A DNA stretch of 64,000 bases, taken from positions 124,001 through 188,000 of the forward strand of contig NZ_JAAZQK010000005.1 in assembly GCF_012275445.1 (NCBI RefSeq), read 5' to 3'. The notes under the pieces are model-generated. The model did not search any database. It had not been told where the DNA came from and was given only the letters and a program-made list of their open reading frames with translations. Both the position numbers and the translations under genes were made by a program. Positions 17,155 through 18,969 of the stretch are shown here, one piece after another. Numbering within the stretch: position 1 is the stretch's first letter; each line of letters starts with the position of its first letter. Source of the stretch: Rhizobacter sp. SG703. Lineage in GTDB: Bacteria; Pseudomonadota; Gammaproteobacteria; Burkholderiales; Burkholderiaceae_C.

Positions 17155-17427
17155 CGGGCCGGCCTCGCGGGAGCTGAGGCGGCCGGGCCAAGCCTGTTGG
17201 CACTTCGACAGTTCGAAACGCAACAGACCTGGCTTGGCACGACTGACATTGACGAGATCAGGGACACCCCTGTCTCTTCGAGGGAACCTCGCTGCGGTGA
17301 CAGCCGCTCACGGGTTCCTCTTCGATTTACTACTTCCTCCGCTGAGTTCGTTGCAGTGATCCCGGGAATCTGGAGCGCCCGATCACTGCTCGATCAACTT
17401 TTACTACTACCGCTCAGATACGCAGTC
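17155..17427. other. Non-coding region between diguanylate cyclase and peptide gene
   Basis: No supported gene. It holds two hairpins: an imperfect one at 17280-17320 (GAGGGAACC paired with GGTTCCTC, with inner GCGG/CCGC) and a perfect one at 17353-17389. The base composition is clearly less G+C-rich than the flanking genes and continues so through luxR. It lies downstream of two convergent genes, so terminator function is plausible. Confidence 0.55.
17353..17389. terminator. Perfect 9-bp inverted repeat downstream of the peptide gene
   Basis: GCAGTGATC (17353-17361) and GATCACTGC (17381-17389) pair perfectly around a 19-nt loop. On the plus strand a short CTTTT follows at about 17398-17402, giving at best a weak intrinsic terminator for the cyclase message. 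For the minus-strand peptide mRNA it would form a 3' hairpin about 40 nt after the stop codon. Confidence 0.45.
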
Positions 17428-17586
17428 TCACCAGCCCTTGTTCGGCAAATCCGTTCCGCCGCTGATCAGGCGCAGCAGCTGTGCATCGAGAACGACAGGC
17501 TCGTTGCGCACTGCTGCCGGCTCCATCTCGAACAGAACTTCGTTCTTCGAGTCAGCCATCGGGATCACGGAGATTGCTTGTTGCAT
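17428..17586 (-). CDS. 52-residue peptide with double-glycine-type leader
   Basis: I do not recognise a named family. ATG 17586 is preceded by AGGAG with a 6-nt spacer, a strong initiation site. The C-terminus reads LDAQLLRLISGGTDLPNKGW (33-52). Counting back from the second Gly, Leu is at -12 and -7, Ile at -4 and Gly at -2 and -1, which is the pattern of double-glycine leaders cut by C39 peptidase transporters; cleavage would free the octapeptide TDLPNKGW. No cysteines, so no disulfide or lanthionine in the core. It lies 127 bp downstream of luxR on the same strand, has a lux-box-like site at 17662-17681 and a 5'-UTR hairpin. No transporter is in the window. A non-secreted small protein is the main alternative. 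Confidence 0.66.
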   Translation of the reverse strand: MQQAISVIPMADSKNEVLFEMEPAAVRNEPVVLDAQLLRLISGGTDLPNKGW

Positions 17587-17607
17587 GAGGGGCTCCTGGC
17601 TTGCTGC

Positions 17608-17661: not shown

Positions 17662-17681
17662 AACTGTCAGCTCTTACAGGT
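17662..17681 (-). promoter_or_regulatory. lux-box-like site upstream of the peptide gene
   Basis: Read on the minus strand the 20-mer is ACCTGTAAGAGCTGACAGTT, close to the Vibrio lux box ACCTGTAGGATCGTACAGGT. The outer dyad ACCTGT/ACAGTT differs from perfect symmetry at one position. Its centre is 85 bp before the peptide ATG; a possible -10 (CAATAG, 17633-17638) lies about 36 bp from the centre, near the spacing expected for LuxR-type activation. Confidence 0.68.
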
Positions 17682-17713: not shown

Positions 17714-18427
17714 TCAACGAATCAGCCCCATGCGCAAGGCCTTCAGAACGGCCTGATGCTTGTTGACGCAACCCAGTTTGTGCATCGCATTGTTCACATG
17801 TAGTACAGCGGTTCGTTCACTGATACCAAGGATGTTTCCCACTTCCCATGCAGTCTTACCGTCCATGGTCCAGCGCAAGGTTTCCACCTCCCGTGGCGTG
17901 AGCGGTGACATGCCAGGTTCTTGTGCGGCGGGGATGAGAATGCGAGACGCGCTCTCATAGGCGTGCACGGCGAAGAGTTGCAAGTCCGCGACGATGCGTG
18001 TGAGTTCTTGGCGGTCCATCGGCAACGGTTGATCACGCTCGACCCCCAGCACGAAGTGCTTTCCGTCGGGCAGATGAAGCGCCAATCCAATTCCGCAGTG
18101 GTAGCCGAAGCGGGCTTGCTGCTCCCATTTTTCGCCTTGGCCGGAGGTCGTGTAAGTCCCTTGGTTCCAGATGATGGGCACGCTCTGGCGCTTGCAATGC
18201 TGCATCACCGGATCAGCCCGGAAATTGGCCGGATCTTCAAAGGACTCGCGGTACGCAACCGGCGCGTTGTCGACGGCGATGAACTCGGGCTCACCCAGGA
18301 AATGGTCGATCACCGTGGTGGCGCTGACCTTCTCGAAGCCGAGTTGCTGGGCGAAGCGAACGATCTCGCCCTGGAACTCGTCACGGGTTCCAGCCTGCAG
18401 CACCGACATGTACCCACCTTGCAGCAT
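17714..18427 (-). CDS. LuxR-type quorum-sensing regulator (no luxI nearby)
   Basis: Encodes 237 residues, typical of acyl-homoserine-lactone receptors. An N-terminal autoinducer-binding domain (about 15-165) is followed by a GerE/LuxR helix-turn-helix (174-237) starting LTPREVETL with the conserved E180, L184 and G190. Aligned to TraR, D72, P73 and W87 match D70, P71 and W85, but positions 57 and 61 are Y59 and F63 instead of Trp and Tyr. AAGGTGAG precedes ATG 18427; an internal ATG at 18409 is the alternative. No synthase gene is in the window, so it is a solo here. Three overlapping lux-box-like dyads lie 50-101 bp upstream, suggesting autoregulation. Lower G+C than its neighbours suggests transfer. 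Confidence 0.93.
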   Translation of the reverse strand: MLQGGYMSVLQAGTRDEFQGEIVRFAQQLGFEKVSATTVIDHFLGEPEFIAVDNAPVAYRESFEDPANFRADPVMQHCKRQSVPIIWNQGTYTTSGQGEKWEQQARFGYHCGIGLALHLPDGKHFVLGVERDQPLPMDRQELTRIVADLQLFAVHAYESASRILIPAAQEPGMSPLTPREVETLRWTMDGKTAWEVGNILGISERTAVLHVNNAMHKLGCVNKHQAVLKALRMGLIR

Positions 18428-18476: not shown

Positions 18477-18528
18477 ACCTGACAGGTCTTACAGCTGACA
18501 GAGATTACAGCTGGCAAGGTTTACAGCT
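18477..18528. promoter_or_regulatory. Three overlapping lux-box-like dyads (16-bp period)
   Basis: ACCTGACAGGTCTTACAGCT (18477-18496), AGCTGACAGAGATTACAGCT (18493-18512) and AGCTGGCAAGGTTTACAGCT (18509-18528) are each 20 bp with CTG/CAG half-sites. Neighbours share the 4-bp AGCT, giving an exact 16-bp repeat. They lie between luxR (minus strand) and the hypothetical gene at 18598 (plus strand). Confidence 0.72.
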
Positions 18529-18597: not shown

Positions 18598-18969
18598 ATG
18601 ACGCCTGCATGGACCATCTACGCCTGGCCACCCGTCAAGTGGCAAGCGGACAGCACCCCCGATCTTCACTTCGTTCACCTGGGCACCCGGGTGCTGAATC
18701 CCGGCGATGAGGACGGACCCAGCACCGGCCAGACGCTGTGGGGTGGTCCACTCTCCGAAGGCGCGGCCGGCGTGGCCTGGGACTGGGTGCAGCTGGAGCA
18801 GGGCATCGTCGCGATGGCCGACCCGCTCGGGTTGATCACCAACCTGCAGCTGCTGGGTGCCGGCGGCGAGAAGCTCACCGGCATGGAAGTGGCGCTGCGG
18901 CTCAACGAGATCGTGCACACGCTGCCGTGGCAATCGGAAGTTCAACGCGCGCTGGACCGCGCGGCCTGA
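18598..18969 (+). CDS. Conserved-looking hypothetical protein
   Basis: Encodes 123 residues from ATG 18598; a TTG at 18544 in frame would add 18 residues. I do not recognise the family. It is soluble, rich in Trp near the N-terminus (WTIYAWPPVKW) and has no signal peptide, cysteines or membrane segment. No clear Shine-Dalgarno lies at normal spacing before ATG 18598. It is divergent from luxR, with the lux-box-like array 70-121 bp upstream, so it may be part of the LuxR regulon. Codon use resembles the surrounding high-G+C genes rather than luxR. Confidence 0.62.
   Translation: MTPAWTIYAWPPVKWQADSTPDLHFVHLGTRVLNPGDEDGPSTGQTLWGGPLSEGAAGVAWDWVQLEQGIVAMADPLGLITNLQLLGAGGEKLTGMEVALRLNEIVHTLPWQSEVQRALDRAA

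Follow-up and report, generated by a model that had tools for sequence, protein, structure and literature searches.

LuxR-type proteins are the textbook sensors of acyl-homoserine lactones (AHLs), and for many LuxR solos no ligand is known. Here we analyze a LuxR solo and the small gene next to it in a 64,000-nucleotide stretch of the Rhizobacter sp. SG703 genome (contig NZ_JAAZQK010000005.1, positions 124,001 to 188,000 of the forward strand; the whole stretch is hereafter the window). The small gene (window positions 17428–17586, on the minus strand, as are all window features below unless a plus sign is given; 52 codons plus stop) encodes a putative pheromone precursor. Comparison of 86 loci suggests, with a probability that we put at roughly 0.83, that the two genes form a self-contained quorum-sensing pair in which the peptide would be the LuxR's own autoinducer. 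An earlier note on this DNA, made from the sequence alone, had proposed a secreted peptide under LuxR control; it did not go on to propose that this peptide most likely also serves as ligand for the LuxR beside it.

The RRNPP systems of Firmicutes (Rap, Rgg, NprR, PlcR and PrgX) resemble these loci in that genes for a small pro-peptide and an intracellular receptor are adjacent and the signal is short (PMC10075063, PMC13220807); a 2026 review places them in Gram-positive bacteria (PMC13220807). In contrast, the receptor here is a LuxR protein by sequence, the host is Gram-negative, the precursor has a double-glycine (GG) leader along with genes for a C39 ATP-binding cassette (ABC) exporter and HlyD, and there are multi-copy precursors. 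LuxI/LuxR systems share with these loci the receptor family, the lux boxes and a divergent RsaM-like gene, whereas the loci analyzed here have no synthase, encode a ribosomally made precursor instead, and show replacement of the residues that contact the AHL lactone. The GG pheromones of streptococci likewise combine a GG leader with a C39 ABC exporter, but their receptor is a histidine kinase, whereas here the covarying partner is LuxR. OryR and PipR are also LuxR solos, but their signal is described as coming from plants and proline iminopeptidase genes are their neighbors (PMC4981722, PMC10134790); PipR is reported to be tripeptide-responsive and to depend on an ABC transporter for peptides (PMC4981722), and its ligand is listed elsewhere as an ethanolamine derivative (PMC10134790). 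These proteins carry the W57M and Y61W replacements, whereas the LuxRs analyzed here mostly have Y or F at the W57 position (Y and F at the two positions in the window).

Bez et al. (2023) group LuxR solos by their neighbors, and such a precursor is not named in the parts consulted of that paper (PMC10134790). The 'type 6' RsaM loci of PMC10710839, in which rsaM diverges from a luxR solo (Pelomonas, Thauera, Kinneretia, Albitalea and Xenophilus), are probably the same pair of genes seen from the other side; the word peptide is absent from the main text of that paper and from PMC13043044. Among the papers listed by searches of an open PMC library, none was found to describe a LuxR solo paired with a PxxxW precursor, with subscription papers and most preprints outside the search. 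The LuxR-peptide pairing appears categorically new and made of known parts, with binding being a prediction. Somewhat more cautiously than for the pair itself, we regard as probable a new class of quorum sensing, in which LuxR-type receptors would respond to a ribosomal hexapeptide autoinducer, x-P-x-x-x-W, with a readable specificity code, and which would include leaderless micro-genes. If so, for one large group of LuxR solos the ligand is a gene-encoded peptide and can be deduced from genome sequence, a receptor-ligand code can be derived from sequence, Gram-negative bacteria possess RRNPP-like peptide communication via an unrelated receptor, and orthogonal receptor-signal pairs become available for engineering.

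The precursor gene is preceded by a ribosome-binding site, AGGAG (17593–17597), 6 nucleotides upstream of the ATG (precursor start codons are predictions throughout). Its product consists of a leader, MQQAISV...LLRLISGG, followed by TDLPNKGW; the end of the open reading frame (ORF) is ISGGTDLPNKGW. The leader (17455–17586) is of the C39 type, with I41 at −4, L38 at −7 and L33 at −12 when the second glycine is taken as −1, i.e. exactly the hydrophobic positions that the earlier note had pointed out, and a strict pattern (GG or GA with hydrophobic −4, −7 and −12) occurs in the window and in 75 of the 83 precursors overall. What is conserved at the C-terminus is not the octapeptide of that note as such but its final hexapeptide, LPNKGW (17431–17448). 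A chance ORF was rejected given the orthologues, the enrichment of PxxxW ends over control ORFs and the ratio of nonsynonymous to synonymous changes (pN/pS) of 0.31 over 14 close, partly overlapping precursor pairs (0.32 for leaders, 0.37 for spacers and 0.19 for the motif, with the motif of G192/G088 counted as spacer); at the sequence level, the 52-codon ORF is thus confirmed as a real gene.

The loci were collected along two routes. The first search detected the precursor in 3 of 10 other genomes of the same genus (one weakly, E = 0.016), and a luxR route added two more (G002 and G008). An alignment of four precursors matched 37 of 399 genomes of the family at E = 0.05; of 38 matches, 25 were kept after reading, plus that in G005, and 13 were dropped as spurious or unclear. 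A luxR search of the same 399-genome draw (115 genomes at 10−25) contributed another 62 loci, with identities as low as about 53%. Left out were G180, which lies at a contig edge, the partial matches in G169 and G218, any second paralogue from a given genome and matches under about 53% identity, except for 20 taken as a distant set. Among the 88 loci collected, 2 were cut by contig ends, and the other 86, all from one bacterial family, were examined. Wider searches at E = 10−50 returned, among 349 genomes of the order, only the genome itself, G101 (same family) and G515 (41% identity, motif not found), and, among 350 genomes of the class, the genome itself only; a plasmid search gave no match. 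A match in Ruminococcus (L011) was rejected because its translation has no GG.

The common architecture consists of a divergent RsaM-like gene and luxR, followed by a box, the precursor, HlyD and the C39 ABC exporter. As had been noticed in the window, where the precursor lies directly downstream of luxR, a small pro-peptide gene adjoins the regulator gene, and 83 of the 86 luxR-orthologue loci carry a motif-bearing precursor; conserved homologues with the GG leader, the search for which the earlier note had suggested, do exist. The precursor ends are PxxxW in 77 loci (at most one residue after W), PxxxxW in 2 and the motif before a tail in 4, with no motif in 3 (two peptides, in G362 and G235, were assigned by eye), whereas among other small ORFs of the same stretches, the controls, 47 of 12,217 end in PxxxW. 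The hexapeptide is present in 2 to 5 copies in 25 precursors, e.g. GPNGGW five times in G056 and SPKGTW four times in each of G163, G038 and G244. All copies are identical within the precursor in 21 of these, and in 18 of the 21, the DNA copies differ synonymously. Because the copies are identical within a precursor yet differ between species (APKNTW, APKSTW, APKSGW, TPRGGW, LPYRGW), the pattern appears pheromone-like. In one genus (5 genomes), neither the leader nor HlyD/C39 was found in the 5 kb examined, and ORFs of 10–31 codons still end in PRAGW, PKGGW or PRNAW. Such leaderless micro-genes, of roughly 10–31 codons (e.g. MQVLLPRNAW), would encode the signal almost directly.

The lux-box-like site that had been seen ahead of the precursor, CTGTAAGAGCTGACAG (17664–17679), belongs to a conserved arrangement, which supports lux-box control across the relatives. 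A box within 2 mismatches of CTGTAAN4TGACAG stands just after luxR in 85 of the 86 loci and is exact in 63, compared to 14 (within 2 mismatches) and 0 (exact) of 1,322 control windows. Exact CTGTAAN4TGNCAG is found at 4 sites in the 6.5-Mb genome, CTGTAAGAGCTGACAG among them, all at the precursor/luxR locus. Pattern matches place three abutting 16-bp lux boxes in the intergenic region between luxR and the RsaM-like gene (18479–18526), and because three boxes stand at luxR, its autoregulation is suggested. In some relatives, exact off-locus boxes precede genes for receiver-domain (L095, L103, L110), HD-domain (L099, L106), GGDEF-like (L101) and TonB-receptor (L096, L104) proteins, among others, perhaps indicative of a larger, cyclic-di-GMP-linked regulon; the genome-wide pattern search detected no exact off-locus box in the window genome.

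The proposed receptor (17714–18427) carries both domains of a LuxR-type protein (Pfam Autoind_bind, 9.6 × 10−19; GerE, 2.1 × 10−15), in agreement with the earlier assignment; its best match among PDB structures is LasR (E = 7.1 × 10−24), and its orthologues are 53–90% identical to it. No LuxI was found in the window genome by a search that gave 33 matches of at least 75 bits in the 399-genome draw, or at any of the luxR loci. Among the 85 LuxRs of sufficient length, 79 have Y, F, M or A in place of the tryptophan at the AHL-lactone site (LasR W60, TraR W57), and none has Y at the equivalent of LasR Y56; the window LuxR has Tyr at the equivalent of TraR W57 and F at that of Y61.

Binding of the peptide by the receptor is supported by covariation, which was analyzed in loci with an exact hexamer and a full-length LuxR (79 for the size rule below, 67 when thinned at 90%, and 60 in the comparison with exporter proteins). 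Across the 60 loci, the distance between hexapeptides (last copy) correlates with that between LuxR ligand-binding domains (r = 0.303) and less with those of the DNA-binding domain (0.099), C39 (0.095) or HlyD (0.144). The partial correlations with the ligand-binding domain given each other protein or domain are 0.27–0.30 (0 of 999 permutations), whereas those of C39 and HlyD given the ligand-binding domain are negative. Column by column, the signal is concentrated at the positions of the LasR pocket, as defined by the docking contacts listed in Table 3 of PMC11231148, both in the 67 loci (p = 2 × 10−4, 0 of 500 permutations) and in 40 loci that are less than 75% identical (p = 0.001, 0 of 500 permutations). 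No such signal was found for the leader against the LuxR pocket (p = 0.33–0.36, the former for 59 loci; 250 and 205 of 500 permutations).

The top column is the equivalent of LasR Ala70, which in the window LuxR is Phe69 (codon 18221–18223), the proposed contact of the residue before Trp. All 29 loci with Gly in this column have a residue other than Gly before Trp, and all 28 loci with a bulky residue have Gly before Trp, the other 22 of the 79 being mixed (10 Gly, 12 other). Among 19 independent pairs differing before Trp, from a tree built without columns 70 and 101, 17 are consistent, none is inconsistent and 2 are ties (p = 1.5 × 10−5, uncorrected for the choice of column); the next best of 237 columns gives 10 vs. 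2, in the opposite direction. One such switch involves the window itself: its LuxR combines F69 with KGW, whereas the LuxRs of G010 and G004 (90 and 88% identical to it, respectively) combine Gly with KTW. A second column, the equivalent of LasR Phe101 (in the window Lys100, codon 18128–18130), is proposed to contact peptide position 3. All 16 loci with a basic residue in this column have a non-basic position 3, 51 of the 61 with an aliphatic residue have a basic position 3, and all 7 untied independent pairs agree (p = 0.016). The putative specificity code would thus read as follows: a bulky residue at 69 is matched by Gly before Trp, Gly at 69 by Thr, Ser, Asn, Tyr or Val in the same place, and a basic residue 100 by a non-basic position 3.

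The code can also be compared with distant luxR paralogues outside the fit. A strict PxxxW ORF was found in 3 of 21 of these, compared to 29 of 1,661 control windows; one of the three fits the size rule (W with PGW) and two belong to the mixed class. Looser ends that fit are ...PTWPTW in L237 (Gly with PTW) and ...PRGGWLC in L226 (Tyr). Leaderless micro-ORFs, MICLPRVGW and MSQAAIAVRTSFPRTGW, were observed just after such paralogues (L229, L231). Perhaps the class reaches this far (MICLPRVGW).

Under the proposed mechanism, a C39 ABC exporter acting together with HlyD (the two being generally encoded beside the precursor, in the window genome elsewhere) would cut the precursor after GG and release a small peptide ending in LPNKGW. 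The peptide would then re-enter the cytoplasm and bind in the pocket of the neighboring LuxR solo, with specificity arising from the contacts of the residue before Trp with LuxR 69 and of position 3 with LuxR 100. The complex would act, presumably as an activator, at the boxes before the precursor and in the luxR/RsaM-like region, closing a loop, which the RsaM-like protein may damp. Export by C39/HlyD is supported by the leader, the linkage and the joint absence of both in one genus. With respect to linkage, HlyD and C39 ABC exporter genes lie downstream in 66 of the 86 loci, with HlyD starting less than 600 nucleotides from luxR in 63 of the 66; within the sequence examined, 17 loci have neither and 3 have only one, two of these being short stretches. 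Neither the window nor its two nearest relatives have the exporter at the locus. The C39 transporter for which the earlier note had suggested a search in the same genome has candidates in five C39 matches above the cut-off, none of them at the precursor locus, so export would occur in trans. With respect to uptake, a peptide of six residues might enter through porins and a peptide permease. A TonB-dependent receptor gene stands behind an exact box in G005 and G106; as a conserved importer, this receptor is a weak candidate, with a box within 1 mismatch at 2 of 13 genes with upstream sequence.

Several observations weigh against this interpretation. The residues typical of AHL receptors are largely kept among the 85 LuxRs (D73 in 83, P74 in 85, W88 in 84 and G113 in 84), as is the AHL tryptophan in 6. 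Such retention is what would be expected if an AHL-type or eavesdropping LuxR solo switched on a secreted effector, so that the peptide would be its output and not its ligand; also in line with this possibility, 7 of the 85 locus genomes within the 399-genome draw (G005 lies outside it) encode a clear LuxI (at least 75 bits), on another contig or at least about 195 kb away, 3 more (G113, G189, G404) have partial matches over the cut-off, and the off-locus boxes suggest further targets in some genomes. The covariation itself has weaker sides: the whole-domain correlation falls to 0.157 after thinning to 67 loci and to 0.085 for ligand-binding domain distances above 0.30; for peptide position 1 by itself, enrichment in the pocket is not clear (p = 0.20, 8 of 500 permutations); column 70 and the size classes were picked after scanning and seeing the data table; and the permutations are not phylogeny-aware, whereas the independent-pair test is. 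Furthermore, 3 of the 86 loci have no motif: G277 has neither box nor precursor, and in G396 and G204 (L204, L216), the leader is followed by LPRVGGLGG instead of PxxxW, possibly a decaying or altered signal. The window locus, like 16 of the 85 others within the sequence examined, has no HlyD/C39, C39 export does not account for the leaderless precursors of one genus (5 genomes), and no uptake route was found, the boxed TonB-type receptor being undetected in the window genome at E = 10−60. Even so, a peptide that is only an output of an AHL-type solo seems unlikely to us, given that the window genome has no detected LuxI, the lactone tryptophan is replaced in 79 of 85 LuxRs, and the hexapeptide covaries with the ligand pocket whereas the leader and exporter do not.

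The layout of HlyD and C39 ABC exporter genes is that of class II microcins, and their position downstream of the precursor would suit a quorum-controlled bacteriocin or microcin of very small size, with a CvaA/CvaB-like exporter operon. Against this are the exact repetition of a six-residue unit that is matched to the LuxR pocket and the persistence of the hexapeptide without leader and exporter in one genus, which make a microcin very improbable; the preference of the earlier note for a signal over a bacteriocin is supported by the comparison of related loci. Least credible of all is a host-directed peptide, a RaxX-like mimic of a plant hormone with a RaxB-like transporter: weak NCBIfam RaxX matches in 2 of 22 precursors (best E = 0.031) hint at it, but none of the 22 matches NF038382 above the cut-off, the covariation is with the bacterium's own LuxR, and no further recurrent gene was found inside the operon in the clusters of neighboring genes (ORFs of at least 90 codons), part of which were annotated. 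We retain the peptide as the probable autoinducer of the adjacent LuxR.

The divergent gene conserved beside luxR (18598–18969, plus strand), recovered by the neighbor clustering, is RsaM-like or DUF4902-like: 7 of 8 members match DUF4902 at E ≤ 1 (best 3.8 × 10−5), the window copy scoring 14.4 bits against a gathering cut-off of 25, and the best PDB profile match is 4o2h (BCAM1869; E = 0.016). In some genomes, several luxR paralogues stand in a row beside one precursor (L079, L067, L167, L161). On contig 8 of the window's own genome, a 62-residue microcin-like ORF with a VSGA leader (L033:3442–3630, plus strand) lies about 0.9 kb before a HlyD/C39 pair. This C39 was rejected as the moved exporter of the operon and appears to be a relative, not a moved copy, because its identity to the 66 operon C39s is 52–59%, compared to a median pairwise value of 67% among the latter. 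Stable hairpins (z = −2.5) were observed 3' of the precursor gene in the window (17250–17430), where most relatives have the exporter genes.
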